Assembly: GCA_020697375.1 (NCBI GenBank)
Contig: JAJFBJ010000002.1
Coordinates: 1 to 64,000, forward strand
Source: Nitrospira sp.
GTDB taxonomy: Bacteria; Nitrospirota; Nitrospiria; Nitrospirales; Nitrospiraceae
Direction of reading: 5' to 3'
DNA length: 64,000 bases
Shown: one piece after another, positions 2,104 to 26,687 of the stretch
How positions within the stretch are numbered: the first letter of the stretch is position 1
Layout of the letters: each line of letters starts with the position of its first letter
The notes under the pieces: generated by a model
What the model was told of the DNA's origin: nothing
The model's input: only the letters and a program-made list of their open reading frames with translations
The model's database searches: none
Program-made: the position numbers and the translations under genes

Positions 2104-2119
2104 GTTGCATGACCGACGT

Positions 2120-4759
2120 TCATCGGCCGACGACGGCAATGCCGGCGGCGGTCAAGGCGACACTGCCGATGATGCTGGCCACCGTCTGCCACAGCGCGAG
2201 CTGCGGCGTACGAGCTTCAATTTTCTGCGGGACCACGATCGTATCGCCGGCACGCAACTCCTTGACGGCCAGGTATGCCGAGTCGGTGGTGCCGTTGGCC
2301 CGCATCACGTACATTTCCCGCTTATTGGCATCCTCCGCCAAGCCGCCCGCTTGCCGCAAATACTCATCGAGCCCAAGGGTCGGCCGATACACCACCGTGC
2401 TGGGGTTCTTCACCGACCCGATGATGCTGACCGTCTGCGACGGCGTCGGGATCATGATCCGGTCACGCGCCTCCAGAATGATGTCGTCCTCGGTGCCTTC
2501 GAGTTGATCGATGGATTCCATGCGGATCACCACACGCCCCAGCTCCAGCCGTGAGGTGATGGCTTCCAGCTGCTGGAGACGCAGATTCAGCACCTGTTGC
2601 TCCGCAAGTCCCCCGGCGCCGGAAAAAACCGCCGACGCGTTCAGTCCGGTGGCGCCTGCCGCCATCCCGGCCGACTGGGCCGTCAGGCGCTGGCGTTCCG
2701 AGGCCACAAACCGCTCCAATTCCGCCTGTTGTCGAAGCTTGACGGATTCCCGCGTGAGGACCAATCCGGCGGGGAAGGCATTAGGAGTCACGCCGCCGGC
2801 CCGCCTCAGCACCGAGCTCAATCGCTCGCCCATTTCAATCGTGAAATACCCCGGCCGCTTCAATTCCCCCTCCACCAATACGAGATTAGGCGGCCGATGC
2901 TGGCTCGCGACGACGACTTGATCCAAACGGTGGAGCGCATGGTTCTCGCCGTTGTCGCCTTCGAGCAACGCCTTGGGGCTGAATTGAATCACCCTGGTTT
3001 GATAGGTCACGGGGTCCGTCCGGATGATTTCAGCACGATCCGCATAGGCATCTACCGTCAGCTGATCATGTATCAGCAGATCCTTCACCTTCATGCCGGG
3101 ACGATATTCATAGGGCCCCGGGCTTTTCACCGCCCCGACGAGACTCACGACATTCGTGATCTGCGTCGGAAGCATGCCGATGCGCACGTAATCGCCGTCC
3201 AGGATGTACGGATCGCCTCCCGCCACGCCGGGCCGGCTTTTCTCATGCTCCGAGGAAGCCAATGCCCCGACCAGATCCACGTCGACCATAATGCGGCCCC
3301 GCTCAGGATCGAGCCGGAAGAGATGGCAGCGCTGACGGTCCGACAGCGGGGTGAGACCGCCCGCTAAGCCGAGCAGCTCCGTCAATCGCACGCCGGGTTT
3401 GATTTCATAGATCGCCGGTCGCTTGATCGATCCGCTGACCGCCACGACGGGACCGAGCGGCGGTACCAGCACCACATCGCCGGATTGCAGCCGCTGGTCG
3501 AAGCGCCGGTCACCCCGCAATAGAAAATCGTAGAGGTCCAATTCGGCCACCGTCTTGCCTTCGCGCATGACCTTGACCTGGCGCAATGATCCTGAACGGG
3601 CCGGTCCGCAGGCGGCATAGAGCGCATTGGACGTCGTCGCCAGCGCGCTCACTTCATAGGCCCCGGGGCGGACGACTTCGCCCACGACAAACACCTTGAT
3701 CGTCCGGATCCGTGCCATTGAGACATGCAATTCAAATCGCTTCAGAAGGGTGCCCAGTCTGGCCCGCACCGTTCGCTCCACCTGAGAGAACGATTGCCCG
3801 CCCACGGGAATCGCCCCAACCTGCGGGATAACGATCATGCCGTCGCGTTCGACCGGCACGATGAAGCTGCGATTGAAAGTGGGGTCGGGCACGTTCCAGA
3901 TATGCACGGCGAGCGAGTCTTGCGGTCCGACGATGAAGTCCGGCCCGACCGGAATATCTTGAATCGGTGAAAAGGTATTGGCTTGGGAGTCGAAGAAATC
4001 ATAGCCGAATTGGCGCAGGCGGCTCTTCACCCCATGGAGCACGGAAAATTCAGCGAAGGCCTCTTCGATGCCAAAGTCCTGCTGTCGCAGGAGTTCAGCC
4101 GTGAATACTTTTTTTTCAGGCAACGGACGCGCCCCTCCCGGTTGTTGCGTTCCGGGCTGACTTCCCGGCTGGGGCTGAATTTGACCGGCGGACGGTTGGA
4201 TGGTTCTGGAACCACCCTGTCCGAACGGCAATTGCGCCACACCGACCTTCTCACGTTCGGCTTGAACCTGATATTCGATGCTCAATTTTTCCTTGTCGGC
4301 TTGCAGTTTCTCCTGCCGGCGATCGAGTTCTTCCTGCTCTTGCTTCATCCGTTGCTCGATCGAACTCGGCAGGAGGCTGCTCGGCTCGACCGGCCAGTAG
4401 TCGTTTAAGTTGGGAACCGTTCCCTTCGGGCTGAGGTCAGGCTGCAAGGGGATCGGACAAGGAGTTTGGGCCGGCACGATCGGCTGTAACGCGCTCGGGT
4501 TCGTCAGGATGGCTTGGCCCAGATTTGCGCCCATCCCAGGAATATTGAATCCTCCGGGCGGCAATCCGCCGGCTGCCCCATGTCCCGGCTGCTGCATCAT
4601 CCCCGGAGGCGACTGTTGCGGTAGGTTCTGGGCCAGGAGCGAGGGAGGAAGGACGAAGGACAGGATCAAGATCCAGATGAGCAAGCGTGCCCAAGCGGCC
4701 GAGCCCGAATGAAAGTGGGAACGGTGAAGAAGGGTCACATGGTCACCCGGTCCGGCCAT
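2120..4759 (-). CDS. Polysaccharide export protein, Wza-like, with five SLBB domains
   Basis: Probable outer-membrane/periplasmic export channel component for the glycan. After a hydrophobic N-terminal signal segment comes a Pro/Gln/Gly-rich region of about 200 residues, then a polysaccharide-export domain (about residues 250-330). Five SLBB-like repeats follow, each opening with a pattern like VVGEVVRPGAY, VSGSIKRPAIY, LVGAVKSPGPY, VEGELKRPGYF or IIGSVKNPST. A hydrophobic segment ends the protein. At about 880 residues it is more than twice the length of E. coli Wza (about 380), which has fewer SLBB domains. A TTG at 4774 is an alternative start. It sits between the Wzi-like and Wzz-like genes with short gaps. 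Confidence 0.88.
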   Translation of the reverse strand: MAGPGDHVTLLHRSHFHSGSAAWARLLIWILILSFVLPPSLLAQNLPQQSPPGMMQQPGHGAAGGLPPGGFNIPGMGANLGQAILTNPSALQPIVPAQTPCPIPLQPDLSPKGTVPNLNDYWPVEPSSLLPSSIEQRMKQEQEELDRRQEKLQADKEKLSIEYQVQAEREKVGVAQLPFGQGGSRTIQPSAGQIQPQPGSQPGTQQPGGARPLPEKKVFTAELLRQQDFGIEEAFAEFSVLHGVKSRLRQFGYDFFDSQANTFSPIQDIPVGPDFIVGPQDSLAVHIWNVPDPTFNRSFIVPVERDGMIVIPQVGAIPVGGQSFSQVERTVRARLGTLLKRFELHVSMARIRTIKVFVVGEVVRPGAYEVSALATTSNALYAACGPARSGSLRQVKVMREGKTVAELDLYDFLLRGDRRFDQRLQSGDVVLVPPLGPVVAVSGSIKRPAIYEIKPGVRLTELLGLAGGLTPLSDRQRCHLFRLDPERGRIMVDVDLVGALASSEHEKSRPGVAGGDPYILDGDYVRIGMLPTQITNVVSLVGAVKSPGPYEYRPGMKVKDLLIHDQLTVDAYADRAEIIRTDPVTYQTRVIQFSPKALLEGDNGENHALHRLDQVVVASQHRPPNLVLVEGELKRPGYFTIEMGERLSSVLRRAGGVTPNAFPAGLVLTRESVKLRQQAELERFVASERQRLTAQSAGMAAGATGLNASAVFSGAGGLAEQQVLNLRLQQLEAITSRLELGRVVIRMESIDQLEGTEDDIILEARDRIMIPTPSQTVSIIGSVKNPSTVVYRPTLGLDEYLRQAGGLAEDANKREMYVMRANGTTDSAYLAVKELRAGDTIVVPQKIEARTPQLALWQTVASIIGSVALTAAGIAVVGR

Positions 4760-4783
4760 AAAGCGCACGATCAAGTCGGTAGC

Positions 4784-6424
4784 CTAAAACTGCATGGCTA
4801 GAGAAGTCCAGAACAAATGGTTCCGCGCCTCGACCCCGGCCGCGAACGTTTCGGCGAAGGGCGTTATCGCGGAGATCTGCCCAGGGTTCTTGAGGCGCTG
4901 AAAAGTATACCCGACGGTGAACTGCGTTCGGCTCGACCACCACCAGGTCAGGTCGATGGCCGCTTCCCGTTTCGTCTCATGGACCGGTTGTCCCCGGTCC
5001 CGTTCCTGTAAATTGAAGTTTGCGCCCAGCTGCAATGTGTCGGTCAAGTACCGGGTGGAGCGCACGAATAAATCGATTCCATCGGTCCCCATATGATGCC
5101 CGATAGGAAATCCGCGAAAGCGCATGCCGCTGACATAGGGCGAGTTGTTGTACCACACTTGCCTCAGCTCGGGATGCCTCCGGCGGCCGAAATCCGTATC
5201 GGCATATTCGATGCGCAGATCCATGGTATCGCCCTCGAACACTTGCGGGATATAGATGCCGGCCAGGAATGCCGTCCGACTGGGGATGGGAAGTTGGGAC
5301 CATTTATCTTCTGTCCCGATCTCTCCATACAGTTGCAGGCCGGCTGGAAACGGAATCAGATAGGGCAGAGAAGGAATGCGGAGTCGGAAGTCCGCCATGG
5401 CCTGCTCATTGACATCCCGATCACCGGTTTGGTTCGACTCATGGATGTAGGCATCCACCACCACGCCAGGAAACGATTGATCACGCCCGCGACCGCCGAA
5501 CTGAGTCAGACGTGTGAGGCCGAGTTCCAGCCACGAAGCCGGCAGATAGCTGATGCGCAGACCGAAGATCTTGGCGCGTGAAAAATCGCGATCGCGTTCC
5601 AATTGAGCGAGGAACGAATTCACTTTCCAGTCGCCGAGTCCGCCGAGAAACCCCGGCAATCGAAACGGACGCTCGGTTCCCAACTTGATCATGTCCATGG
5701 GAAAGGCATGGTCGGTCAGCAACAGGGACCCGTGATACCCGCGGCCCCACCATTGCGTGCCTCGCCCGGCTTCCAGCGCTATGTTCGCGTAGATCAACTT
5801 GAGGCTGAATTCCCGCAGGTAAAAATTGTCGCTGTTACTGGTGGCTCCGATGCCCAGGATATGGCGATCGCTGATGAACTTCGGTTGCACCATCAACGCC
5901 GCCCAGTCGCTCAGTTCGACCCATCCGCGCACATCGGTTTGGTTCTGGACGCCGTTCACATAATATTCGCCGCCGCGGTTCTCACGGAACCGGACGGTCT
6001 GGCCGCCCCCGATCGACGACGCGTCGAACTCGGTAGTGACCAGGGCGCCGGCACGCAATAGACCGGTTTTATCGCCGGCTTTGGCGCGTACGGTCCCCAA
6101 ACGGATGAGTTCCGGACGAAACTCCGCGAGCAATCGTTCGAGTAACGGTTCGGCAATCGCTTCCCGACCATCTAACGGCACCTGATCGGCGCGGACACGT
6201 TCGATGGCGTCGGCTACGAATCGAGCCGCCTGCATCCTGCTGAAAGGCTTGACGCCGGTCAGGGCACGATCGATCACTCCCAGCGCGACCAACCGCTCGA
6301 TGGCCTCGTAGCTCCAGTGGTGAAGCGGCACGTTACTGGACGCGAGGGCAACCCCGCTTAGGATCAGCCAGATGGCAGGGACAAGGCAAAGGCGAAAACC
6401 GCATGAGACGAGAGTTGATTTCAC
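4784..6424 (-). CDS. Capsule assembly Wzi-family outer-membrane protein
   Basis: Predicted outer-membrane beta-barrel that helps attach or assemble the exported polysaccharide at the cell surface. It has a signal peptide (cleavage likely after about residue 29, ALA-SS). An SLH-like stretch follows (HHWSYEAIERLVALGVIDR and about 30 more residues), and then about 400 residues rich in alternating aromatic strands, as in the Wzi family. The start is a GTG at 6422-6424 without a strong ribosome binding site. It lies 24 bases upstream of the SLBB export gene, which supports a joint role. The assignment rests on overall pattern and context rather than a catalytic motif. Confidence 0.78.
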   Translation of the reverse strand: MKSTLVSCGFRLCLVPAIWLILSGVALASSNVPLHHWSYEAIERLVALGVIDRALTGVKPFSRMQAARFVADAIERVRADQVPLDGREAIAEPLLERLLAEFRPELIRLGTVRAKAGDKTGLLRAGALVTTEFDASSIGGGQTVRFRENRGGEYYVNGVQNQTDVRGWVELSDWAALMVQPKFISDRHILGIGATSNSDNFYLREFSLKLIYANIALEAGRGTQWWGRGYHGSLLLTDHAFPMDMIKLGTERPFRLPGFLGGLGDWKVNSFLAQLERDRDFSRAKIFGLRISYLPASWLELGLTRLTQFGGRGRDQSFPGVVVDAYIHESNQTGDRDVNEQAMADFRLRIPSLPYLIPFPAGLQLYGEIGTEDKWSQLPIPSRTAFLAGIYIPQVFEGDTMDLRIEYADTDFGRRRHPELRQVWYNNSPYVSGMRFRGFPIGHHMGTDGIDLFVRSTRYLTDTLQLGANFNLQERDRGQPVHETKREAAIDLTWWWSSRTQFTVGYTFQRLKNPGQISAITPFAETFAAGVEARNHLFWTSLAMQF

Positions 6425-6512: not shown

Positions 6513-8483
6513 TCATCGCCGCCTGTGCGGACCTATGGGCGAAAGCCGGGCGACAGGCCGGTCTCCGGCAGGGTACGAGAGAGTATCCTCGGACAAGCCG
6601 CCATCCCCATCCCCCGCCGCCTCTCGGACAGTGGATAACCCGGACGAGCGGTACGTGGGAAGAATGTCACTCAGGACGGCCAGCACCTCCGGCACGTTTC
6701 CTTCCGCGGCGCACTGCTCCAGCCGGATGATGAGACCTGGCAGGCGGGAGAGATCATACGCCTGGTCGGGATGCACGCAGAGAACTTTTGGAACGGATGT
6801 CGTTTCCACCGCTTCGTGACAGGTCACCAGTTCCTCGACCAACTTCTCGCCGGGCCTGCGGCCAAGGTAGGCCAGAACAATGTCCTTGTCCGGAACGAAT
6901 CCGGACAAGCGAATCAGATTTCGCGCCATATCGACCACGCTGATCTGTTCCCCCATCTCGAGCACGAACAGCTCCCCGCCCCGAGCCAGGCGGGCCGCCT
7001 GCAGCACCAGATGGACGGCTTCGCTGATCAGCATAAAATAGCGGCGCATGCCCGGGTCCGTGATGGTCACCGGGCCGCCCGCCCTGATCTGTTCGAGAAA
7101 CAGCGGAACTACGCTGCCGTTGCTTCCCAGGACATTGCCGAACCGCACCGCGGAAAAGATAGTTTTGGAAGAACGGCCCAGTTCCTGGAGGAACAGCTCC
7201 GCAACCCCTTTAGTCGCCCCCATCACACTGACGGGGTTGACGGCTTTATCCGTCGAAATGAGGATGAATCGATCGACCTCATGGCGATGTGCCGCTTCCG
7301 CCACAACGCGGGTGCCCCCGACATTGTTCAGCACCGCTTCACAGAGGTTTTCCTCCATCAGCGGAACATGTTTATGCGCGGCGCTATGGAACACGAGCGT
7401 GGGACGGTATTCGGCAAACAACCGGTTCATCTGGCCGACATGGGTGATGTCTCCGATCAGCGGGGACAGGAAATCATGTCCCGCGGTCGACAGTTCGTTG
7501 GCAACGGCAAAGAGTCCGTTTTCATATCGATCGAGGAGCACCAGCGCTTGGGGAGACAGCCTGGCAACCTGCCGGCATAACTCCGCCCCGATCGACCCTC
7601 CGGCTCCGGTCACAAGCACACGTTGGCCCTGCACCAGTTTTCGCAGCGGCTCGGGGTTCAGATCGACCGGAACACGATCGAGCAGGTCCTCGATGGAAAG
7701 GTTGCGAATCTGGCTGACCTTGACCCGGCACTGCAACAGATCTCGCAAGTTCGGCAGGGTTTGAATGGGAAGATCGAACGGCTCCAGGGCCTTCACCACC
7801 TCCCGGACAACGGCCGGAGCCGCACTCGGCATGGCGACAAGAACCACGTCGGGACCTTGTTCGGCAACGATGCGTGGCAGGCCGCCCCTGGCCCCGAGCA
7901 CCTTCACGCCGTGAATCCTATGGCCGATTTTACCGGGGTTGTCATCGATGAATCCGATCGGGCAATAGCCGTACGAGGGATTGTTCCGCATTTCCCGTAC
8001 GATCAAAGCTCCGGCGTCGCCCGCCCCGACAATGAGAACCCGTTTACGGCCGGTCATCATCCATCCTGACTCCCGAATCAGCCGTGGCGCCACGCGCAAG
8101 CCGGTCAACAGACACAGGAGCAGCAAGGCATCGATGATGAAAACGGATGACGGATAGGACCAAGCCCCCATCCCGAACCGGACCAGCGCGGCAAATGCCA
8201 GCGTGCTCAACGCGATACTCAGGGCCAGATCCCGGACATCCCAGAGGCCCGTGTATCGCCACAGGCTGTCATAGAGCCGGAATGGATAGAAGGCGAGCGC
8301 CCGAAGGGTCAACAGCAGCGGCAGCAGGGAGATAAAGAGGTCCCACTGTTCGGCGGGAATGTTTTCATCGAACCGCAAAAGAAACGCCAGCCAATTCGCC
8401 AGGGCCGCAAGCCCCAGGTGAGCGGCAGATAACAGGAAGCGCCGTTGCCCTGCCGTGAATGTGAGAGGGTGCCGAGTCGGCAT
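6513..8483 (-). CDS. Membrane-bound nucleotide-sugar 4,6-dehydratase, CapD/PglF/WbpM type
   Basis: Predicted to convert a UDP-HexNAc to its 4-keto-6-deoxy form, the branch point to rare amino sugars. Four N-terminal membrane segments (about residues 10-130) precede a first Rossmann-like domain (VLIVGAGDAGALIVREM) and a second one with the NAD motif VTGAGGSIGAE. The usual SDR Tyr-x3-Lys is replaced by Met-x3-Lys (VMGATK), as in the PglF/WbpM group. The ATG at 8483 is preferred; a GTG at 8567 would add 28 residues. Its product would be a fitting substrate for the two DegT aminotransferases encoded upstream. Confidence 0.9.
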   Translation of the reverse strand: MPTRHPLTFTAGQRRFLLSAAHLGLAALANWLAFLLRFDENIPAEQWDLFISLLPLLLTLRALAFYPFRLYDSLWRYTGLWDVRDLALSIALSTLAFAALVRFGMGAWSYPSSVFIIDALLLLCLLTGLRVAPRLIRESGWMMTGRKRVLIVGAGDAGALIVREMRNNPSYGYCPIGFIDDNPGKIGHRIHGVKVLGARGGLPRIVAEQGPDVVLVAMPSAAPAVVREVVKALEPFDLPIQTLPNLRDLLQCRVKVSQIRNLSIEDLLDRVPVDLNPEPLRKLVQGQRVLVTGAGGSIGAELCRQVARLSPQALVLLDRYENGLFAVANELSTAGHDFLSPLIGDITHVGQMNRLFAEYRPTLVFHSAAHKHVPLMEENLCEAVLNNVGGTRVVAEAAHRHEVDRFILISTDKAVNPVSVMGATKGVAELFLQELGRSSKTIFSAVRFGNVLGSNGSVVPLFLEQIRAGGPVTITDPGMRRYFMLISEAVHLVLQAARLARGGELFVLEMGEQISVVDMARNLIRLSGFVPDKDIVLAYLGRRPGEKLVEELVTCHEAVETTSVPKVLCVHPDQAYDLSRLPGLIIRLEQCAAEGNVPEVLAVLSDILPTYRSSGLSTVREAAGDGDGGLSEDTLSYPAGDRPVARLSPIGPHRRR

Positions 8484-8658: not shown

Positions 8659-9432
8659 TCAGGCAGGCCGGCAGACGGCGTACAGGATTTTGTACCCGGT
8701 GACTTCTCGGCCAAGGGAGATCGGCAGGGGGGGGCGATAGTCCGCCATTCCATCCGCAATGGTTGAGGGAAACGGCAGCAACTTGCCGAAAAAAAGGCGC
8801 TTGAGAAATCGCTTCCCTTCCATGGTGGAGGGAATCATGCGGAGGACGACTGCAGCGCGCTTGACACAAGACAAAAGATAATCACGAGGCGACGATTTCG
8901 TGGCGGGAAAGGCGCCAAGGATGTCTGTCTGAAAACCGGTTTCTTGCAGCAATGTCGAGAGCCGTCGAGCCGAAAAATACTGCCGACTGTAAGGACTTGG
9001 ATTGAAGTCCGGCCACTCCGGGTTCACCAGGCACAGGAGGAGCAGCCCCCGAGGTGTCAGGATTCGGCGGCACTCCTGTAAGAATGCGAGTGGTTGCTCC
9101 ACAAAGTAGATCGCCTCATAACAGAGGATCACATCTCGGCTTGCCGCGCGCAGCGGCAGCGCTTCGGCTCTCAACCTCAGCAACGGAATCTTTGTCGAGT
9201 ATGCACGCGCCCTCGCGAGCAATTCTTCGGTGATATCTCCTCCCACCGTATGCCGCGCCTGCTTGGCGAGATATTCCAGCCCGACAGCTTGCCCGCAGGC
9301 CACCTCCAATAGCCGCTTGTCCCGGCAGAATTCCGCCGCATAACGATAACGCGTATAGAGCATGGATAACGCTTCTTGCGTGACCCAATCGCCTGCCTTT
9401 TCAGTCACGTGGCTGTAGTCGAGGAGTGTCAC
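8659..9432 (-). CDS. Class I SAM-dependent methyltransferase
   Basis: About 257 residues. Motif I reads LLEVACGQAVG near residue 40, and a post-motif stretch (VILCYEAIYFVEQP) matches the Methyltransf_11 style. It probably methylates a sugar or glycan of this cluster. The start is a GTG at 9430-9432 that overlaps the TGA of the upstream aminotransferase (GTGA), a sign of translational coupling. The frame stays open further upstream, but that part reads as antisense-like sequence inside the aminotransferase gene and I excluded it. The substrate cannot be read from the sequence. Confidence 0.85.
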   Translation of the reverse strand: MTLLDYSHVTEKAGDWVTQEALSMLYTRYRYAAEFCRDKRLLEVACGQAVGLEYLAKQARHTVGGDITEELLARARAYSTKIPLLRLRAEALPLRAASRDVILCYEAIYFVEQPLAFLQECRRILTPRGLLLLCLVNPEWPDFNPSPYSRQYFSARRLSTLLQETGFQTDILGAFPATKSSPRDYLLSCVKRAAVVLRMIPSTMEGKRFLKRLFFGKLLPFPSTIADGMADYRPPLPISLGREVTGYKILYAVCRPA

Positions 9433-10541
9433 GGCTGCTTCGAAAAGAACGCTTGAAGACAGGCAACGGTCGCGGCGACATGGTCTTCCGTGGTCTCTGC
9501 GCTCATCGGCAGAGACAGCACTTCCCGGCAGAGGGATTGGGTTTCCGGAACATTCGGGATAGCCAACCCCAAGCCCTGATGCTCCCACATGGGTTTGGGC
9601 CAATGAACCAGCGTCTCGACGCCCTGCTCCTTCAGGTATGAGCGTACCTGACCTCGTACGCTCGTGCGGATGACGTAGTTTTGGTAGATGTCGCTGCGGC
9701 GGGTCTGATCGAAACGAGGCAGGCGCAACTGCCGGATCCCGGCAAGGCCCTGGTGATAGAGATCCGCAATCCTGCGCCGGTGGGCAATCCATTCGGGCAG
9801 ATAGCGAAGTTTGACATCCAGCACGGCAGCTTGCACGTTGTCCAAAAGCGCCGTCTGACCATGGTAGTGGTACTCGCCCGTTTCCCGGTCTTCGCCGTTA
9901 TAACGAAGGAGCGTGGCCATCCGCGCGATCTGCGGATCATTCGTCGTGATTGCCCCGCCGTCCCCGAATCCACCGAGAACCTTGAAGGGGTAGAAACTGA
10001 AACAGCCGGCCCGTCCCTGGCTTCCTGCGCATTGTCCGTCAAACGTCGCCCCAAGTGCCTGCGCCGCATCCTCGATGACGGCCAATCCTTGCTTGTCGGC
10101 GAGCGCCAGGATCGCCTCCATGTCGCACATCCGTCCGTTGAGATGGACCGGCAACAGGGCTTTGGTCCTCGGCGTGATGGCGCGCTCGATCGATCCCACA
10201 TCCATGTTGAAGTCGGATCCCACATCGACCAGGACCGGTTGCGCCCCGCAATGGACGATGGCAGAGACTGTCGCGACGAACGTATGGGCCACTGTAATCA
10301 CTTCATGGCCGGGTCCGACACCGGCTCCGAGGAGGGCGAAATACAGGGCATGATACCCGCTGTTGACGCCGACGGCGTACTTCACTCCCACGAATTCCGC
10401 CAGGTGCTGTTCGAAATCCCTGAGGTGACGCCGATTGATCAGATCGCCGTTCGTCAAACAGTCGATGATCGCGCGATCGATCTCCGGCTTGATGGTCGCA
10501 TAGTGACGGCGCGGGTCGATGAATGGAACGTAGTAGGCCAT
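9429..10541 (-). CDS. DegT/DnrJ/EryC1/StrS sugar aminotransferase (copy 1)
   Basis: PLP-dependent aminotransferase of 370 residues acting on keto-sugar nucleotides. The Schiff-base lysine is K187 in FYPFKVLGGFGDGG, and the phosphate-binding region GVNSGYHAL is near residue 58. It aligns without a gap over at least the first 190 residues with the second copy at 12665-13780, with roughly half the residues identical by eye, so the two are paralogs. The sequence HTFVATVSAI near residue 86 resembles 3-keto-sugar aminotransferases of the QdtB/FdtB kind, but 3- versus 4-keto preference cannot be settled here. The ATG is at 10541, 17 bases after the E1-beta stop. Confidence 0.9.
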   Translation of the reverse strand: MAYYVPFIDPRRHYATIKPEIDRAIIDCLTNGDLINRRHLRDFEQHLAEFVGVKYAVGVNSGYHALYFALLGAGVGPGHEVITVAHTFVATVSAIVHCGAQPVLVDVGSDFNMDVGSIERAITPRTKALLPVHLNGRMCDMEAILALADKQGLAVIEDAAQALGATFDGQCAGSQGRAGCFSFYPFKVLGGFGDGGAITTNDPQIARMATLLRYNGEDRETGEYHYHGQTALLDNVQAAVLDVKLRYLPEWIAHRRRIADLYHQGLAGIRQLRLPRFDQTRRSDIYQNYVIRTSVRGQVRSYLKEQGVETLVHWPKPMWEHQGLGLAIPNVPETQSLCREVLSLPMSAETTEDHVAATVACLQAFFSKQP

Positions 10542-10558
10542 ACGCAAGGGCCGGCGCC

Positions 10559-11533
10559 CTATGACAGCACCTTCTCCACCGCTGCGACAATGTTGCCGGC
10601 GCCGATATAATAGGCTCGCTCGAGCGCGGCGGAGGTCGGCGCCGGAGCATCCGGCAGACAGACGCGGACAATCGGGGCCTTGAGCGTATGAAAAATTTCC
10701 CCCGCGACCGCGGCGGCTATTTCGGCCGCGATGCCGCCGCTCATCCATGCGGCATCGGCGATGACCAGGCGACCGGTTTTCCCCACGGAAGAATAAATGA
10801 GGTCGCGATCCCAGGGCTTGATCGACCGCAAGTCGATCGATTCCACATCGATACCCCGCCCCGCCAGCATCTCGACCGCCTTGACCGCCTCAGCCGCCAT
10901 GTACGACGTGGCGACCAGCGTGACGTCATTCCCGCTGCGGCGAAGCGCCGCCGTTCCGATCGGCACTTCATAGAGGCCATCCGGCACGTCTCCCTCCAAG
11001 TCATAGAGCCAGCGGTCATCGAGATAGAGCACCGGATTCCCGTCCCGGACGGCGGCGATGAGCAGACCCTTCGCATCAAAGGGAGTGCTGGGCATGATTA
11101 CCTTCAAACCAGGCACATGGGCAAACAGCGCCTGTAATGCTTGGGAATGCTGAGCTCCCTGCTCGCCTCCCCGGTTGATGACCGCGCGAATGACGACGGG
11201 AACATTGACCTGCCCTCCAAAAAGATAGGACCAGTTGGCCGCCTGATTCACGATCGGATCGACCGCCAGAAGCATGAAGTCCATCCGCGCGTGGAACACG
11301 ATCGGTCGCATGCCGACGATCGCGGCCCCGATGGCGGCTCCCGTCGTCGCGTTTTCCGATACCGGGCAGTCGAGCACCCGTTCGCGGCCGAACTCCTTGT
11401 CCAGGTCTTGAAGGCTGGCCCCTGCATACCAGGGGTTCCATACGCCTTGGCCGCACACGAAGACCCGAGAATCATGCCGCAAGAGATCGGCATGCGCTTC
11501 TCGTATTGCCTGAGCATAGGAAATACGGCGCAT
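10559..11533 (-). CDS. TPP-dependent dehydrogenase E1-beta-like (transketolase pyrimidine-binding) subunit
   Basis: 324 residues with the E1-beta layout of pyruvate/acetoin/branched-chain keto-acid dehydrogenases. The activating glutamate is E60 in CPVSENATTG, AQHSQALQALFAHVPGLKV is the conserved central stretch, and a transketolase C-terminal domain follows. It pairs with the E1-alpha gene directly upstream. No E2 lipoyl acyltransferase or E3 gene is nearby, so a classical dehydrogenase complex is unlikely. Placed between two sugar aminotransferases, it more likely serves a ligase-type reaction that adds a keto-acid-derived acyl carbon unit to a sugar. A GGAGG site lies about 11 bases before the ATG. 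Confidence 0.88.
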   Translation of the reverse strand: MRRISYAQAIREAHADLLRHDSRVFVCGQGVWNPWYAGASLQDLDKEFGRERVLDCPVSENATTGAAIGAAIVGMRPIVFHARMDFMLLAVDPIVNQAANWSYLFGGQVNVPVVIRAVINRGGEQGAQHSQALQALFAHVPGLKVIMPSTPFDAKGLLIAAVRDGNPVLYLDDRWLYDLEGDVPDGLYEVPIGTAALRRSGNDVTLVATSYMAAEAVKAVEMLAGRGIDVESIDLRSIKPWDRDLIYSSVGKTGRLVIADAAWMSGGIAAEIAAAVAGEIFHTLKAPIVRVCLPDAPAPTSAALERAYYIGAGNIVAAVEKVLS

Positions 11534-11542
11534 TCTGTAGAA

Positions 11543-12550
11543 CTACCTCCGCATAACATGGACATGCCGGAGAAGATCGCTCCCATCCGGAAGGGGCGAG
11601 GCGCGCGCGAACGCGACGGCCGACTCGACCTCATCCTTGATGGCGCGTTCCACGGCATCCACCTCCCGGTCGGAGATACCCTCCACCATCAAATGCCGTT
11701 TCAGGCGCATGATGGGATCTTTCGGCAACCATTCATCCAGTTCACGACGCCGATTCTCACCGACCATGAGATCCAATCCAGGACCAACATGGCCGCGCCA
11801 CCGATAGGTCCGACACTCCAGGAAGGACGGTCCTTCACCGGCCCTCGCCCTTCCGACTGCCTTCACCGCCCCGTCGAAGACCGCCATCACATCGTTTCCG
11901 TCCAGACGGACAGCCGGCATTCCGACCGGCTCTGCGATGTGGGCGAGGTTGTCGTTCAGCCGGCGATCCGAGAGGGCCATGTGCGTGGAGTAAAAATTGT
12001 TCTCGCATACGAACAGCACGGGGAGCCGATAGAGGGCAGCGAGATTCAGGGACTCGTGAAAATGGCCTTCCTCCGTGGCGCCGTCTCCGAAAAATGCGAC
12101 GGCCACGCGCGACTCATGACGAAGTTTCGAAGCCAGCCCCGCGCCGACGGCGAGAGGAATCGTCGCTCCCACCAGGGGCACTGTCCCGTACAGGCCACAG
12201 GCGGGTGCCACGAGATGCATGGAGCCTCCGCGTCCTTTGGAGCACCCTGTCGCTTTGCCGAAAATCTCCGCCATCATTTCAGCCAACCCTCCGCCCTTCG
12301 CCAGGTAATGGCCGTGCGAGCGATGCCCGCCCCAGACGGTATCTTGCTGCTCCAACGCCGCACAGACGCCGGCGGCAATGGCCTCCTGTCCGATCGACAG
12401 GTGGCAGGGGGTTTTGATCTCGGTTGCTTCCACAAGCGTTGCGATACGTTCTTCGGCAAGGCGGATCAGCAGCATCATTCGGTACAGGTTCAAAAGAAAG
12501 GGAACGGAGCCCCTTCCATGCTCTGGTCCTATCCGGTCTGTCGAATTCAT
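11543..12550 (-). CDS. TPP-dependent dehydrogenase E1-alpha-like subunit
   Basis: 335 residues. The thiamine-diphosphate motif starts at GDG (residues 155-157) and ends at NN (184-185), and H77/H80 of GGHRSHGHYL and RGGSMH are typical of E1-alpha. AGGA lies a few bases before the ATG at 12550. The E1-beta gene follows 9 bases downstream, so the two should form an alpha2beta2 enzyme. The family normally decarboxylates pyruvate or a branched keto acid and passes the acyl group to lipoyl-E2. Lacking a local E2, this pair may pass an acyl carbanion to a keto-sugar, as I recall for the AviB1/AviB2 pair of avilamycin. That role is an inference. Confidence 0.88.
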   Translation of the reverse strand: MNSTDRIGPEHGRGSVPFLLNLYRMMLLIRLAEERIATLVEATEIKTPCHLSIGQEAIAAGVCAALEQQDTVWGGHRSHGHYLAKGGGLAEMMAEIFGKATGCSKGRGGSMHLVAPACGLYGTVPLVGATIPLAVGAGLASKLRHESRVAVAFFGDGATEEGHFHESLNLAALYRLPVLFVCENNFYSTHMALSDRRLNDNLAHIAEPVGMPAVRLDGNDVMAVFDGAVKAVGRARAGEGPSFLECRTYRWRGHVGPGLDLMVGENRRRELDEWLPKDPIMRLKRHLMVEGISDREVDAVERAIKDEVESAVAFARASPLPDGSDLLRHVHVMRR

Positions 12551-12664
12551 GGATTCCTATTGGTAAGAGAGCTGCCTGGTACGGTTCATTCGCCGTACCA
12601 TGTGCCCCATGGAACGCGAAACGAGCCGCCGGCAACACAGTACCACCTAACAGGCACCCAGGCC

Positions 12665-13780
12665 TTAGGTCTCACGATAGAAATCATGCATGCAAGCTAT
12701 GACGTACCGGATCTGATCATCTCCGAGTTCCGGACCAATCGGCAGGTAGAGAAATTCCTTGGCGATGGTTTCGGTCATGGGCAACGACAGATGGTCCAGG
12801 CGCAACGCCTTATGCCGATGGACCGGCGTCACCAGCGAAAGCGGCGTCAACGGCTCGATGCCGCGCTTCTTCAGGAATGTGACCAGTTCATCCCGGCGTT
12901 CCGCCCGCACCGCATAGTTCAGAAAAACATCGAAATGCTTCTCATCAGGAAAGTATGGCAGCCGCAGCTGAGGGATATCCGCCAATCCCTTATGGTAGGC
13001 CTCGGCGATGCAACGACGTCGTTGGATCCAGCCTGAAAAATGCTTCAATTTGACGTTCAAGATGGCGGCCTGCAGGTTGTCCAAACGCGAATTGTAGCCA
13101 TGACAGAGGACTTCTCCGGTCTCCCTGTCTTCGCCATAATCCCTCAGCACGGCAACCTGCCGGGCGATTGCCTGATCGTCGGTGGTCACAATCCCCCCGT
13201 CTCCGAACGCCCCGAGCATTTTGAAGGGATACAGGCTGAAGCATCCGGCGACGCCGAACGAACCCACTTTTCGGCCCTCGTATTCCGCTCCCAGCGCCTG
13301 GGCCGCATCCTCCACGACATACAGCTCGTGGCTTCGTGCGATGTCCATGAGCCTTCTCATATCGCAGGAACGGCCGTTCAAGTGAACGGGAACGATGGCG
13401 CGCGTGCGCGACGTGATGGCCCGTTCGAGTCTCGACAGGTCCATATTGAAATCATCGGCGACATCCATGAGAACCGGAGCGGCGCCCGTATGCACGATAG
13501 CCGAGATGGTGGCCACGCAAGTGTGCGAAACCGAAATCACTTCGTCGCCCGGCCCGACGCCCAGGGCTTTGAAGGTCAAGTGGAGCGCATCGGAACCGCT
13601 GTTCACACCGACGGCGTACCGCGTGCCGACGAAGGCTGCGAGGTTGCGCTCAAAGTCGCGCAGCTCATCCCGCAAAATGAGGTTGCCCCGCTTCAAGACG
13701 TTCGTCACAGCCTCCAAGATTTCGTCCTGGATGCCGGCGAAATGATCGGGCACATTCACGAAGGGAACTTGGTATGGCAT
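12665..13780 (-). CDS. DegT/DnrJ/EryC1/StrS sugar aminotransferase (copy 2)
   Basis: 371 residues, paralogous to the copy at 9429-10541, with the PLP lysine at the same position (K187, LYPFKMLGAFGDGG). It should transfer an amino group from glutamate to a keto-sugar nucleotide. The ATG at 13780 has only a weak ribosome binding site. The frame is open upstream, but that part is low in family similarity and was excluded. The second half diverges more from copy 1, including the region after residue 300 that contacts the sugar, so the two enzymes may use different substrates. The E1-alpha gene follows after 114 bases. Confidence 0.9.
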   Translation of the reverse strand: MPYQVPFVNVPDHFAGIQDEILEAVTNVLKRGNLILRDELRDFERNLAAFVGTRYAVGVNSGSDALHLTFKALGVGPGDEVISVSHTCVATISAIVHTGAAPVLMDVADDFNMDLSRLERAITSRTRAIVPVHLNGRSCDMRRLMDIARSHELYVVEDAAQALGAEYEGRKVGSFGVAGCFSLYPFKMLGAFGDGGIVTTDDQAIARQVAVLRDYGEDRETGEVLCHGYNSRLDNLQAAILNVKLKHFSGWIQRRRCIAEAYHKGLADIPQLRLPYFPDEKHFDVFLNYAVRAERRDELVTFLKKRGIEPLTPLSLVTPVHRHKALRLDHLSLPMTETIAKEFLYLPIGPELGDDQIRYVIACMHDFYRET

Positions 13781-13977
13781 AAGCTGACGCTGAAGCGAAC
13801 AGTCAGTGGTCCGTTCCATTAGGCTGCGACCGGCCTTGCATGTTTTCTCCCAGCAGGATGGGGGAAAAGGCCGCCAGCGGCGTTCTCGCACCGCTCGGAG
13901 ACTCAATGTACTCCCGAAGTATGTAGTCGCCTCTTCGCTCGCTGGGGCCTTGCCGGACGGTCTTTTGCGCATCCTGC

Positions 13978-15660
13978 CTAGGCCGCGGGCAGACCGGTTC
14001 GATGCGGTTTCATCCTGGTTGTGACGATGGTCGCCACCGTCCTGAGAATGATCTTGAGGTCGGTCATCAGCGACTGCTCGCGGATATACCGCAACTGCTC
14101 GCGGACTTTTTCCTGTCGTATCCGATCCACATAGAACTGCACGGGATCGGATGAGCCGGCGAGAAGTGCCCCTTCATCATGAAAACGCAATGAGCCATAA
14201 TCGGTCATACCGGGGCGTACCGAATGAACGAGGCGCTTTTCCTCAGCGCTATAGTATTGGAAATAAAATTCACATTCCGGCCGCGGGCCGACAAGACTCA
14301 TGTCTCCCTTGAGCACATTGAGGAGTTGAGGCAACTCGTCCAGCTTGTATTTTCTCAAGAACCTTCCGACTCTGGTCACCCGGCGGTCGCCTTCGGGGGT
14401 GATGGGCGCGCCCTGCTCCGCGGCAAGACACATCGTTCTGAACTTGATCATGCGAAATGGCTTTCCATATTTACCGAGACGGTCGCCTCGATACAAGACC
14501 GGCCCCCGGGAGTCTAATTTTATAAGGAGCGTTAGGACCGGAGCCAACGGGGCGAACAGGAGCAGCCCGGCCAAGGCTCCCAACAGATCGAATGCTCTCC
14601 GGCCAGGGTACTCCTGTCTATCGGCGTCCGCCCGCCTGCCTCGCCACGATACCCCGGGCAGTGCGGCAAGAACGAGCCCGTACATGGCGCCACAGCCATG
14701 GGCAACATGCCTGACGGCAAACACAAGCGGCAATGTCCACAGATATCTGGCATTTTTCCTACGGACGGCAAACTGAACAGACAATGCCAAAGCGACAAAG
14801 GCATATGACGCCACGGCGGCTGCAAGCGCCCAGGCGAAACGCCAGTCGAGAAACATACCCATTCCCAGCACAACCAACAGGACGACCCACGCGAATGGAA
14901 TCCAGTGCCTCCAGGAACTGGCCTGCTTGCCGAACTTCAAGACATAGGTGGTCCAGACTCCATCGCTGAAATTATGCGCCCAGAATGATTTCAAATCCGC
15001 ATCTGCGTAATAGGTCACTCGAATCTGAGGCGCCAGCAGGATTTTTCCTCCACTGCTTCGAAGCCTCCTGTTCAAGTCCATATCGGAACTTCCGGCTAAT
15101 CTCTCATCGAACGATCCGAGGCGCTCCAGCGTGTCTCTTCTCCAACAGCCGAACGCCGCCGCGTCGGCCCAGCGCGGCTCGCCTGCGCCGATCTTGATAT
15201 AGGCATTTCCCGAAGCGAACCGATGGGACAAGGAGGCGGCAATCGCCTCCGCCATGAACGTCCCGTTCCTGGGAGTGATGGAACAGACTCCGCCTACCAT
15301 GTCCGCGGGATAGGCAAACAAATAGCGGACGCAGGCTTCGATGTAATCCGGAGGATAGGTGGAATGCGCGTCCACCTTCATGACCACCTGGCTGGACGAC
15401 CGACGGATGCCGAGGTTCATCGCCGCCGGAATTGTACCGGCCGGATTATCGATGAGCCGGATATGCGGATGTGATTCGGCGAATCGTTCGACGACTGCCC
15501 TTGTGCCATCCTGGCTGACACCGTCCAGCACGAGGATGTCGAGGCGATCCGCGGGATACGGGTTCGCGACGATCGAGCCGAGACAGCGGCCGATAAACGC
15601 TGCCTCATTCCGGCATGGGATGATGACCGCAACGGAAGGGTGTTGTTCCTTATTCAGCAT
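13978..15660 (-). CDS. Fused GT2 glycosyltransferase and undecaprenyl-phosphate sugar-1-phosphate transferase
   Basis: 560 residues in two modules. Residues 8-240 form a GT2 domain (VAVIIPCRNEAAFIG, a DxD-like MKVDAHS at 94-100, and SDMDLNRRL). Two or three membrane segments span about 255-335. Residues 356-550 form a bacterial sugar transferase of the PglC/WcaJ monotopic type, with KFRTM at 406-410, the catalytic Asp-Glu at 441-442 (KLDELPQ) and GDMSLVGPRPE. The second module should start glycan assembly on undecaprenyl phosphate and the first may add a following sugar. The ATG at 15660 lies 8 bases after the upstream stop. No break in the frame suggests a sequencing fusion. Confidence 0.9.
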   Translation of the reverse strand: MLNKEQHPSVAVIIPCRNEAAFIGRCLGSIVANPYPADRLDILVLDGVSQDGTRAVVERFAESHPHIRLIDNPAGTIPAAMNLGIRRSSSQVVMKVDAHSTYPPDYIEACVRYLFAYPADMVGGVCSITPRNGTFMAEAIAASLSHRFASGNAYIKIGAGEPRWADAAAFGCWRRDTLERLGSFDERLAGSSDMDLNRRLRSSGGKILLAPQIRVTYYADADLKSFWAHNFSDGVWTTYVLKFGKQASSWRHWIPFAWVVLLVVLGMGMFLDWRFAWALAAAVASYAFVALALSVQFAVRRKNARYLWTLPLVFAVRHVAHGCGAMYGLVLAALPGVSWRGRRADADRQEYPGRRAFDLLGALAGLLLFAPLAPVLTLLIKLDSRGPVLYRGDRLGKYGKPFRMIKFRTMCLAAEQGAPITPEGDRRVTRVGRFLRKYKLDELPQLLNVLKGDMSLVGPRPECEFYFQYYSAEEKRLVHSVRPGMTDYGSLRFHDEGALLAGSSDPVQFYVDRIRQEKVREQLRYIREQSLMTDLKIILRTVATIVTTRMKPHRTGLPAA

Positions 15661-15667
15661 CGAATCT

Positions 15668-17065
15668 TTAACGCAGGGGCTTCGGCACACCCAACAACTG
15701 TCCCCAACGAATTGAAGCCAGCCATACGATCATGGTGGGTATGAGGAAGGCCTCGATGATCATGCCCTTGTAGGCTTCGGGGCCCGCGCGAACCAGCGGA
15801 GGGATGAATGAGACGAACCCTGCCGGAGCCACGATGGCCAAGACGTTCGTCCATCGGCGGTCGCCACATGTGGCCCGGCGGTGAGCGTTATAACACTTGG
15901 CCCACACGAAGCCCAACAGAAGCGCGCCGATGATCAGCCCCCCGATTCCAAAGTTCAAGTACCATCCGGTCGCATGATGCACCGTATACCCCTGTCCCGT
16001 CGCACCCTCATAGATACCGAGATTTTCCGCATACTGCACATACGTGCCCTCGGGTCTTTCAGGCCAAAACATGCGGGGGACGATTGAAGTCACGAATGCG
16101 ATCAAACTCGCTCCATAGGTGTAGGCAGCGTTGAAATGGAATACGCCGTAGAGAGAAAAATGTGCGGCAAAGGCTTCGTTGCTCGACCGAATTTCAGGAG
16201 CCCAGGCAAAGGCGTCCCACCAACTCCCGCTCTCCAACAGGGCGAACATCGAAAGCCCCCTCAAAAAATCGATCGCCGCGATGGCAATAAATGCCAGCAT
16301 CCCGATCGGCGCCACGAGCGCCCACTTGACCGGCCTTGCATTGGCCAAATAGAAAAGCCCTCCCAAGATGAAGGCAGAAAACAGTTCGTTCTTATTGCCC
16401 AGCATGGCAAGAAATCCGAATGTGCCCAACATCGAACCGATATACGCCAATCCTATCGTGAGACCTTTGCTTCCTACCAGGAATCGGCTTGCGTCGCCCG
16501 TGACATACACCGCAAACCCGATCGCCAAGGCGAACAACGCGACCCGGTTCAGCACCTGATGCAGAGTGAACCATTCGTTGTACTCTCCCAGCCCGCCTCT
16601 CGTCGCATAGTAGGCCGACATGTTGAGCTGAGCAGCAGCCAGTAATTGATCTTGCATGATCAAGAAGCTGGTCACAATAGCCGCAGCGGACAGAAGGAGT
16701 ATGAAGACATGGGAGATGGAAGCCGGAGCGGAACCCTGGGCAAAGGCAATGCCTTGGCGCCCCCGTGGCAGCAAACACAAGATCGTCAGTTCGACCAGGA
16801 TAATGAAAGTCGCATACAACAATAAGGACCACAGATAGTTTTCATCCAATTCGACAGGAAACATTTTTGCGAGTAAATAGTCATATCGTTTTCCACTGTC
16901 TCCACCGAGTTGATCGGTGACGATCGACCAGGCCCCATAGAGCGACCAGAAGTATAAGAATCCGATGCCTACTGGAAATCCCACGTGGCCCGTCTTAAGC
17001 CAGAGGAGAAGGGCCAATGCGGCAATGACCGACGTTTGCAGCAATAGCAGTAGATAAAACTCCAT
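15668..17065 (-). CDS. Wzy-like O-antigen/exopolysaccharide polymerase
   Basis: Polytopic membrane protein of about 465 residues with 11 or 12 hydrophobic segments and one large loop (about residues 290-370, with several Arg, Tyr and His). This is the layout of oligosaccharide repeat-unit polymerases. It should polymerise undecaprenyl-linked repeat units in the periplasm. The ATG at 17065 is preferred over the upstream ATG at 17098, because the first 11 residues of the longer form are charged and precede the first membrane helix. Wzy proteins share little sequence, so the call rests on topology and on its place between a GT4 gene and the GT2/sugar-transferase gene. Confidence 0.78.
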   Translation of the reverse strand: MEFYLLLLLQTSVIAALALLLWLKTGHVGFPVGIGFLYFWSLYGAWSIVTDQLGGDSGKRYDYLLAKMFPVELDENYLWSLLLYATFIILVELTILCLLPRGRQGIAFAQGSAPASISHVFILLLSAAAIVTSFLIMQDQLLAAAQLNMSAYYATRGGLGEYNEWFTLHQVLNRVALFALAIGFAVYVTGDASRFLVGSKGLTIGLAYIGSMLGTFGFLAMLGNKNELFSAFILGGLFYLANARPVKWALVAPIGMLAFIAIAAIDFLRGLSMFALLESGSWWDAFAWAPEIRSSNEAFAAHFSLYGVFHFNAAYTYGASLIAFVTSIVPRMFWPERPEGTYVQYAENLGIYEGATGQGYTVHHATGWYLNFGIGGLIIGALLLGFVWAKCYNAHRRATCGDRRWTNVLAIVAPAGFVSFIPPLVRAGPEAYKGMIIEAFLIPTMIVWLASIRWGQLLGVPKPLR

Positions 17066-17166
17066 GGAACCTCGTCCACATCTCCTTCGACCGACCATCA
17101 GAGGCGTCGTCCGGACTATATTGCGACCCGCAACGGCGTCAAAGCCGGTGGCTGAAGGACACCTTC

Positions 17167-18201
17167 CTACCTGTCCATCACTTCACGATAGAGCGCCAAC
17201 ACTTTAGAAGCCATCCGTTCTGCGGTCAGATCAAGGCGTATGGCCTGGCTTCCATTCGATCGTGCCGGCATCCGCAATATCTCGCTCAAGGCTGCTCCAA
17301 GTTTCTGCGGGTCGTCGCCGATAATTTTAGACGGATGGACATCTCGAAGCCGCTCGCGCACATCCCCCACATCCACGGACACTACCGGAAGATCGCAGGC
17401 CATGGCTTCCTTGATCACGTTGGGAGATCCTTCCGCCATACTGGTCAGCAGAAAGCAGTCCGCCGCATTGAACATGGTCGCCACTGACTCCTGATCCTTA
17501 CTGCCGTCCAACACAACGAACCGAATCTTACCGCACAACGATTCGGCGACGCGAACGGCCGCTTGAGCCAGGTCAAGACGCTTGTGGACCGGACCGGTCC
17601 CTGCGCTGGATATGACCACCTTCTCACCATCCAGCCAACCGCAACTCGCTCTCGCTTCGTGTTTCGGAACGGGGTGAAAGACCGCCATATCCACTCCGGA
17701 CGGAATAACCTTGGCTTTTCCCGCCTTCCACCACAGCCTGCCCTTCAGTTGCCGGCTGACGCAGATGATGCCGGCTGCCCGAAGGGCGGCAAGTTGGGAC
17801 ATCACCCGGCCTGCCGGCGGTCTCAGCGGATGCCTATCCCAGAAACGATTGAGATCGCTTCCTTGAAAGGTGATCACGAGGGGCAGGCGAGTCAGCGCGG
17901 CACAGAACAACGCGGTCACCGTGCCATAATGCGCGTGAACGAGATCCGGTCGAAAACCGGCGACTTCACGGCGAAACCTCGCTGCTTCAGAAAGCAGAAT
18001 GCCGGGGGAAGTGCGGGAGTGCAAAAAAAACGATCGGCTGATCACGCCCAGTTGCTCAAGAGCGGCGATCTGATTTCTGGCGAAGATCATGTTGAAACCG
18101 ATCGGTAAACCGGGAACGACCGATAAGACACGCGGTGTGAAGTTAGCCATAGACAAACCCGGAACGGCCGGCAGCCGACGGCGATCGCTCGGCATCATCA
18201 T
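17167..18201 (-). CDS. GT4-family glycosyltransferase
   Basis: 344 residues with a GT-B fold layout. The N-terminal acceptor domain has the HAHYG stretch, and FQGSD follows. The C-terminal donor domain has SAGTGPVHKRLDL, a nucleotide-sugar site, and the E-x7-E motif in EGSPNVIKEAM followed by DLPVVS. It should add a sugar to the lipid-linked repeat unit at the cytoplasmic face. An ATG at 18150 that gives MANFTPRVLSVVPGLP as N-terminus may be the true start; neither has a clear ribosome binding site. The SGNH gene ends 12 bases upstream. Confidence 0.85.
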   Translation of the reverse strand: MMMPSDRRRLPAVPGLSMANFTPRVLSVVPGLPIGFNMIFARNQIAALEQLGVISRSFFLHSRTSPGILLSEAARFRREVAGFRPDLVHAHYGTVTALFCAALTRLPLVITFQGSDLNRFWDRHPLRPPAGRVMSQLAALRAAGIICVSRQLKGRLWWKAGKAKVIPSGVDMAVFHPVPKHEARASCGWLDGEKVVISSAGTGPVHKRLDLAQAAVRVAESLCGKIRFVVLDGSKDQESVATMFNAADCFLLTSMAEGSPNVIKEAMACDLPVVSVDVGDVRERLRDVHPSKIIGDDPQKLGAALSEILRMPARSNGSQAIRLDLTAERMASKVLALYREVMDR

Positions 18202-20754: not shown

Positions 20755-20875
20755 GGACGTCCCTCCGCCGGGTGCACTTGCCTGTTCGGAATCGATTGCA
20801 TGGCCGGCGGGCCTTTCATGGTTCGTTACAATGGTTCCTTGAGAAAATGGACGGCATCTGGCAAAAAAACCAGCG

Positions 20876-20905
20876 TTGACGCCCCGCATGCCATCCTTTT
20901 ATGAT
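20876..20905 (+). promoter_or_regulatory. Putative sigma-70-type promoter for the duplicated OMP gene
   Basis: TTGACG at 20876-20881 and TATGAT at 20900-20905 are separated by 18 bases, each one mismatch from consensus. The expected transcription start near 20912-20914 is only 3-5 bases before the GTG at 20917. There is no Shine-Dalgarno sequence, so the mRNA may be leaderless. Confidence 0.5.
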
Positions 20906-26632: not shown

Positions 26633-26687
26633 CCGGTTCGAGTCCCTGCTTCGTCCTGTTTTCTGTTACCTTTTTACTTCTCCCAGC

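Follow-up and report, generated by a model that had tools for sequence, protein, structure and literature searches.

The 64,000-nucleotide window of Nitrospira sp. DNA analysed here (contig JAJFBJ010000002.1, positions 1 to 64,000) holds a Wzy/Wza-type polysaccharide cluster on its minus strand, from ~20.9 to 0.9 kb, in which two adjacent genes encode the alpha and beta chains of a thiamine pyrophosphate (TPP)-dependent E1 enzyme of the pyruvate dehydrogenase (PDH) E1 family. That this is an alpha-KADH2-like E1 pair lying in a surface-glycan cassette without an E2 partner is well supported. The pair is probably an alpha-KADH2-type carboligase that works independently of E2; it would place a two-carbon (C2) branch on UDP-4-keto-6-deoxy-N-acetylglucosamine (UDP-4-keto-6-deoxy-GlcNAc), with the branch then aminated by the neighboring DegT aminotransferase AT2 and the product loaded as the first sugar. 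Since the closest named kin of the pair is one of the enzymes that attach two-carbon branches to antibiotic sugars, it probably builds an unusual branched surface sugar.

Along the minus strand, the genes follow each other in the order AT1 (a DegT aminotransferase), E1-alpha, E1-beta, AT2 (a second DegT aminotransferase), a methyltransferase, a PglF-type 4,6-dehydratase, Wzi, Wza and Wzz. The features on which the argument turns are:

11543..12550, minus strand: E1-alpha, 335 aa, TPP-binding, alpha-KADH2-like (PF00676, 222.5 bits; in a clade with TxnB3)
11714..11815, minus strand: loop A of E1-alpha, residues 246-279, CRTYRWRGHVGPGLD...R, standing in place of the HSxxD...YR loop of E2-linked E1-alpha
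10559..11533, minus strand: E1-beta, 324 aa (Transket_pyr and Transketolase_C; E60 and H129 of the QHSQ motif intact)
9429..10541, minus strand: AT2, DegT aminotransferase, 370 aa, conserved alongside the E1 pair
12665..13780, minus strand: AT1, DegT aminotransferase, 371 aa, an extra gene ahead of E1-alpha
8659..9432, minus strand: S-adenosylmethionine (SAM)-dependent methyltransferase (Methyltransf_11; start codon assigned by hand)
6513..8483, minus strand: membrane-bound PglF/WbpM-type UDP-GlcNAc 4,6-dehydratase (Polysacc_synt_2 and CoA_binding_3)
13978..15690, minus strand: family 2 glycosyltransferase (GT2) fused to a phosphoglycosyltransferase (Bac_transf), 570 aa (domain matches)

The original prediction, made from the sequence alone, had read the order aminotransferase, E1-alpha, E1-beta, aminotransferase at this place, and both coordinates and family matches confirm it. 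The residues it had named were likewise found where expected, namely GDG at 155 and NN at 184-185 of E1-alpha, E60 of E1-beta, and K187 (within a PFK motif) in both DegT proteins.

To begin with the E2 partner, tblastn probes detected no E2 gene in the 64 kb window and none in 99 related loci, and the same probes recovered E2 in four of four control loci, one of which was the source of a probe. The earlier statement that neither E2 nor E3 lies nearby thus stands for E2; for E3, a probe without a positive control gave a weak 25% match at 49151-49618 in the window and nothing in the 99 related loci. We then considered the genomic family of locus L014, a Nitrospira metagenome-assembled genome (MAG) and the nearest genome locus to the window (82% identity in E1-alpha). 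The family search covered 175 genomes; orthologs at 64-82% identity were present in 17 of them, and a further 12 had relatives at 45-50%. For the 16 ortholog-holding genomes tallied, four of which carry Nitrospira or Nitrospiraceae titles, all two-subunit E1-alpha genes and all E2 genes were listed; the tally left out genome G008, whose ortholog lies on a contig of 3.6 kb, weak transketolase-like matches, and two single-chain E1 genes (G047, G048), each with E2 nearby. An E2 gene lay within 4 kb of the ortholog in 0 of 16 cases, as opposed to 43 of 43 for the other two-subunit E1-alpha genes. On the chromosome-sized contigs that carry the ortholog in G033, G047 and G048, the closest E2 gene is at a distance of 710, 982 and 687 kb, respectively. 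The original prediction had also allowed for a distant E2/E3 set co-evolving with the pair; no co-evolving E2 set was seen among the family genomes. Against the NCBIfam models, the window protein scored 315 bits on TIGR03182 (equivalog cut-off 393.85) and 204.6 on TIGR03181 (cut-off 411.35), a comparison made for this protein with no E2-linked E1 as control.

The protein itself differs in its E2-contact loop. In PDH E1-alpha (references 1um9 and 1ni4) loop A reads HSxxD...YR, whereas in the window it reads HVGPGLD...NR, and it aligns with what we take to be the phosphorylation loop of human PDH. In a loop table of 125 out of 157 E1-alpha rows, kept after near-duplicate removal (pieces under 250 aa had been dropped beforehand), HS or HT was found in 15 of 16 E2-linked rows and an HVGP-type motif in 104 of the 109 rows for which no E2 was seen, a label that is limited where contigs or loci are short, as they are for part of these rows. 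The five remaining no-E2 rows were L088, L142, L108, L060 and L056; in the tree described below, L088 and L108 fall outside the clade of the window protein, L142 (Solidesulfovibrio, loop HAGC) and L060 fall inside, and L056 is not among the rows. TxnB3 of trioxacarcin biosynthesis reads TYRWREHVGP and is thus HVGP-type like the window. A later check fits the rule as well, since an E2/E3-linked Sinorhizobium E1 (L165) reads HSKSD and three Azospirillum E1s (L166-L168), each followed by a DegT gene, read HCGP or HVGP. Among the best 120 of 7999 scored homologs of the window protein (itself included), 118 carried HVGP or HVGA and 2 could not be parsed; among the best 120 homologs of a Streptomyces plasmid protein, 119 carried HVGP and 1 HAGP. 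For mitochondrial PDH, one study describes that the phosphorylation loop is needed for binding of the E2 lipoyl domain and that disorder impedes binding and reductive acetylation (PMC3397410). We infer that the HVGP form would abolish the use of E2.

The pair does not group with the E1s of E2-linked dehydrogenases. In an E1-alpha tree of 72 hand-chosen rows with the loop columns masked, the window protein belongs to a 56-row clade (support 100/98) comprising 45 glycan-locus rows (the window included), six actinobacterial rows and five others. All 13 rows labeled as E2-linked lie outside this clade, as does the E2-linked L095 (tree label OTHER). TxnB3, a name taken from the protein record, is the named one among the six actinobacterial rows. 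Another of the six, P0123, is the protein of L141, for which the gene context was read: at 11989-14035 of this locus, on the Streptomyces griseofuscus plasmid pSGRIFU1, an HVGP-type E1 pair lies beside gamma-butyrolactone regulators and a condensation-domain protein, in surroundings that resemble a secondary-metabolite region. In the E1-beta tree, one branch (support 100) cuts the E2-linked rows off from the rest. A firm place inside housekeeping PDH, considered from the start as a competing outcome, was therefore not found, and the genomes carry separate E2-linked E1s besides. The original prediction had proposed a tree with AviB1/AviB2; neither was among the rows, and the kinship seen is that of E1-alpha with TxnB3.

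Conservation of the neighborhood points in the same direction. In the 16 family relatives, AT2 follows the pair in 15, the dehydratase is likewise present in 15 and the methyltransferase is found in 14; because it is conserved across these relatives, the arrangement is more than chance. Beyond the family, we tallied the context of 39 loci of the glycan type (group A; 42 were taken in, and L016, L021 and L023 were dropped as being of the second type described below), whose titles name Nitrospirota, Chloroflexota, Planctomycetota, Acidobacteriota, Patescibacteria, deltaproteobacterial, Legionellaceae, Coxiellaceae and other MAGs. A phosphoglycosyltransferase was found within ~3 kb of the E1 pair in 33 of the 39 loci, a same-strand DegT gene within 9 kb in 34, of which 26 have it immediately behind E1-beta, and a dehydratase within 9 kb in 26, with several contigs ending early. 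Methyltransferase matches occurred in 24 loci, all 24 of which also have DegT; in L025 they are located upstream. The cassette of phosphoglycosyltransferase, E1 pair, DegT, methyltransferase and dehydratase thus recurs in several phyla, and the E1 genes of many relatives are annotated as pyruvate dehydrogenase or acetoin oxidoreductase. L003 keeps the E1 pair and the dehydratase without AT2 and methyltransferase, and no AT2 ortholog was found elsewhere in its genome (best match 43%). With L008, L013, L034 and L057 it makes up the five loci that lack a DegT gene on the same strand. An aldo-keto reductase gene lies near E1 in three of these five (L008, L034, L057) and in two of the 34 with DegT (L009, L024), an alternation that fits a branch ketone being either aminated or reduced. 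One 542-aa protein, P0005, joins the phosphoglycosyltransferase and E1-alpha; it comes from a single contig and is either real or an assembly error, and this one sequence hints that the E1 product is the first sugar loaded. Two further observations concern the cassettes of individual relatives. In L018, a 595-aa open reading frame (ORF) that looks DUF262-like by eye is placed between E1-beta and the DegT gene (12006-13790). In L005, L006, L011, L015 and L019, a class I/II aminotransferase gene lies beside DegT inside the cassette (one locus scanned, the others called by similarity); its product may provide a 2-oxo acid donor or regenerate the amino donor.

E1 pairs without E2 also occur in a second setting, group B, which accounts for 42 of 101 loci (four others, lacking E1-beta, were not assessable). 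Here the order is radical SAM, E1-alpha, E1-beta, GT2 and B12-radical SAM, often with HldE-like and SIS (GmhA-like) genes; examples are L051, L033, L158 and L161, and the hosts are Nitrospirota, deltaproteobacterial, Omnitrophota and other MAGs. In the group B loci tested, most rows have a loop of this kind, and tblastn probes found no E2 in these loci. Group B is scattered in the E1-alpha tree (4 changes), and Azospirillum oryzae L166 joins both settings, with HldE-like, SIS, E1 pair, two DegT genes and a radical SAM gene.

We next turn to the two aminotransferases. AT1 and AT2 share 51% identity over 370 aa, which bears out the claim that they are paralogs and argues against a recent duplication. 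The original prediction had the sugar aminated twice, and this double amination is not supported: no DegT gene precedes E1-alpha in any of the 15 family loci (of 16) that have at least 5 kb of upstream sequence, and the cassette of the relatives has a single DegT, AT1 being an extra gene. The exact order with a DegT gene on both flanks, which had been suggested as a search pattern, was found in 0 of 39 loci, with looser versions in L039 and L078. The nearest relative of AT1 in our set is the likewise E1-linked DegT of L022 (59%), and AT1 may serve another sugar. AT2 is closest among solved structures to 7b0d (a scyllo-inositol transaminase by title), 2oga (257 bits), WbpE (229) and QdtB (220), followed by perosamine synthetase (194), 2fn6 (99.5) and 4ztc (84.8), where we take 2oga to be DesV, 4ztc PglE and 2fn6 PseC. 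By these nearest solved relatives AT2 is not of the PglE/PseC type, a kinship that argues against PglE-like amination without proving amination of a branch.

From these elements the following pathway can be proposed. The best solved relative of the dehydratase is WlaL (5bju, 256 bits), which we take to be PglF, and the enzyme is the likely source of a 4-ketosugar, putatively UDP-4-keto-6-deoxy-GlcNAc. The E1 pair would decarboxylate pyruvate and join the resulting C2 unit to the keto group at C4, so that a tertiary alcohol carrying an acetyl branch is formed. PglF/WbpM-type enzymes yield one ketone, at C4; if this ketone is used as the acceptor, only that of the acetyl branch is left for AT2, which would convert it to a 1-aminoethyl group. 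The methyltransferase could then methylate the product, perhaps on the branch nitrogen, and the phosphoglycosyltransferase would transfer the completed branched amino sugar to the lipid carrier, where it would be the first sugar of the polysaccharide to be exported. We regard two-carbon branching of a ketosugar as likely and a 1-aminoethyl-branched sugar as plausible. The broader idea, that the cross-phylum cassette makes an undescribed C-(1-aminoethyl)-branched, possibly N-methylated 6-deoxy-N-acetylhexosamine with which the surface polysaccharide of Nitrospira and of bacteria from several other phyla begins, and that the HVGP clade also operates in heptose-type lipopolysaccharide (LPS) clusters, is put forward tentatively and with some doubt.

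Several observations weigh against such a pathway. L095, counted as E2-linked because an E2 gene lies ~1.6 kb away (G011:C61), reads HHEGD (1501-2391) and is the sole exception to HS/HT among E2-linked rows. Group A forms one clade only weakly (support 90/55), and in the E1-beta tree the actinobacteria are represented by L141 alone, which sits on a long branch, with TxnB4 not among the rows. The L141 plasmid region, from the same E1-alpha clade, has 22 annotated features and no sugar gene among them, so that C-C ligation in this clade need not target sugars; this suggests that part of the HVGP clade uses non-sugar acceptors. In 13 of 39 loci, L150 included, no dehydratase was seen in the 9 kb searched; dehydratase and phosphoglycosyltransferase are presumably common in polysaccharide loci in any case, and their presence is no proof that E1 acts on the dehydratase product. 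The alternation of reductase and aminotransferase comes from few loci, of which L013 and L057 end soon past E1-beta, and is uncorrected for kinship. Finally, the best functionally named relatives of AT2 (WbpE, QdtB and DesV) act on C3 ketones, and the score of perosamine synthetase, a 4-aminotransferase, is near enough to that of WbpE (194 and 229 bits) that AT2 could aminate the sugar ring.

This last point leads to an alternative that we consider somewhat unlikely, in which the E2-independent carboligase uses another acceptor (an aldehyde or a different ketosugar) and AT2 aminates C4 to give a bacillosamine-like sugar. As in the Pgl pathway, a dehydratase, an aminotransferase and a phosphoglycosyltransferase alone suffice to produce and load a 4-amino sugar, and both the match to perosamine synthetase and the L141 region would fit; yet AT2 is far from the presumed PglE (84.8 bits as against 257 for 2oga), and L003 retains the E1 pair and the dehydratase in the absence of AT2. 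A different donor, namely a longer or hydroxylated 2-oxo acid from which another branch would be transferred, appears quite unlikely. The class I/II aminotransferase of five cassettes is a possible source of such an acid and the YerE-like ErwE takes longer donors, but every alpha-KADH2 branch described in a 2025 review is C2, and KbDH takes pyruvate only (PMC12247030); moreover, no class I/II aminotransferase adjoins the window pair, the sole match of the probe being weak and inside AT2. Very unlikely, in our view, is an ordinary dehydrogenase E1 that borrows E2 and E3 from another complex and supplies acetyl- or acyl-coenzyme A for N-acylation of the glycan. The pair is homologous to PDH E1, and the genomes carrying the ortholog contain between two and four E2 genes or gene fragments; set against this are the E2 neighbor of every other two-subunit E1-alpha gene in the tally, the replaced lipoyl-contact loop and the grouping apart from E2-linked E1s. 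We thus favor the E2-independent carboligase acting on the 4-ketosugar.

This assignment is in line with natural product biosynthesis, where, according to the same review, alpha-KADH2 pairs put acetyl branches on ketosugars of antibiotics, followed by reduction, methylation or, in kibdelomycin, transamination (PMC12247030). Trioxacarcin is an acetyl-branch case (PMC12247030, PMC10338323), and two-carbon branching is also described for paulomycin (PMC4425429, PMC4753412), with a branching proposal for everninomicin (PMC10338323). The named pairs are TxnB3 (trioxacarcin), Pau11/Pau12 (paulomycin), AviB1/AviB2 (avilamycin) and KbDH (kibdelomycin). Like them, the window pair has E1-alpha and E1-beta with intact TPP motifs and no nearby E2, and lies near a sugar 4,6-dehydratase; TxnB3 shares its E1-alpha clade and HVGP loop, and the Pau, Avi and KbDH pairs are set alongside by description. 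The window pair differs in its Wza/Wzi export-type cluster, beside a phosphoglycosyltransferase and DegT, with a putative donor and acceptor. YerE, of yersiniose A in the LPS of Yersinia pseudotuberculosis, makes the same type of bond, from pyruvate C2 onto a 4-ketosugar of a surface polysaccharide (as predicted here), but it is described as a single TPP-dependent, acetolactate synthase-like flavoprotein of another superfamily (PMC12247030, PMC4753412), unlike the two-chain E1 of the window. With PDH E1 (alpha2beta2) the pair shares the family, the TPP motifs, Glu60 of E1-beta and the QHSQ His, and differs in lacking a nearby E2, in having HVGPxxD for HSxxD..YR, in grouping separately and in scoring under the NCBIfam PDH cut-offs. 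The E1 of acetoin dehydrogenase, or acetoin:dichlorophenolindophenol oxidoreductase, is also E1-type and is described as forming tertiary alpha-hydroxy ketones in vitro (PMC12247030); physiologically it works with E2, and it is set apart here by description, not being among the tree rows.

The remaining genes of the cluster are consistent with an exported polysaccharide and comprise:

15668..17098, minus strand: Wzy-like repeat-unit polymerase candidate (weak TIGR04370 match, 23.4 bits, cut-off 40; no Pfam match)
17167..18201, minus strand: GT4 glycosyltransferase (domain match)
18214..19350, minus strand: GDSL-like protein (PF00657, 25.2 bits, no single stretch passing alone)
19378..20889, minus strand: MurJ/Wzx-like flippase candidate (TIGR01695, 88.6 bits, under the cut-off of 235.55)
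4784..6424, minus strand: Wzi capsule-assembly outer-membrane protein (PF14052, 235.7 bits)
2120..4774, minus strand: Wza-like polysaccharide export protein (TIGR03027 and TIGR03028 matches, under their cut-offs)
883..2139, minus strand: Wzz-like chain-length protein, named by eye (adjoins Wza; same-place relatives in L001, L003 and L014)

The Wzy-like candidate has relatives in L001 and L014 at 52-53%, and the GT2 and phosphoglycosyltransferase, one protein in the window, are encoded separately in the close relatives L001, L014 and L146. A search for phage relatives of 8659-15690 gave no match. Elsewhere in the window (25430-28634, minus strand), adjoining ORFs resemble ispG and dxs of the methylerythritol phosphate pathway by eye, which is ordinary.

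The original prediction had spoken of a new route, which is too strong, given that an E1-pair C2 branch with transamination is already reported for kibdelomycin in the 2025 review (PMC12247030). That review attributes branching in surface glycans chiefly to YerE-like enzymes and places alpha-KADH2 branching for the most part in antimicrobial natural products (PMC12247030). Among the matches listed from open-licence PMC literature, nothing relevant was found on E1 genes in polysaccharide clusters, and titles and abstract starts gave no aminoethyl-branched surface sugar. What looks new here is the wide use of this type of E1 pair in surface glycans, the transaminated branch having its precedent in kibdelomycin. 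A simple sequence test based on the HVGP loop can separate likely C-C ligases from dehydrogenase E1s, and the loop makes the proposed function directly testable. If our reading holds, branching by E1 pairs would also be common in the envelopes of environmental bacteria, with many of the genes carrying dehydrogenase names; and if the broader idea of the cross-phylum cassette is right too, E2-less E1 pairs would be a major way of making branched envelope sugars in bacteria, and one that has been overlooked.

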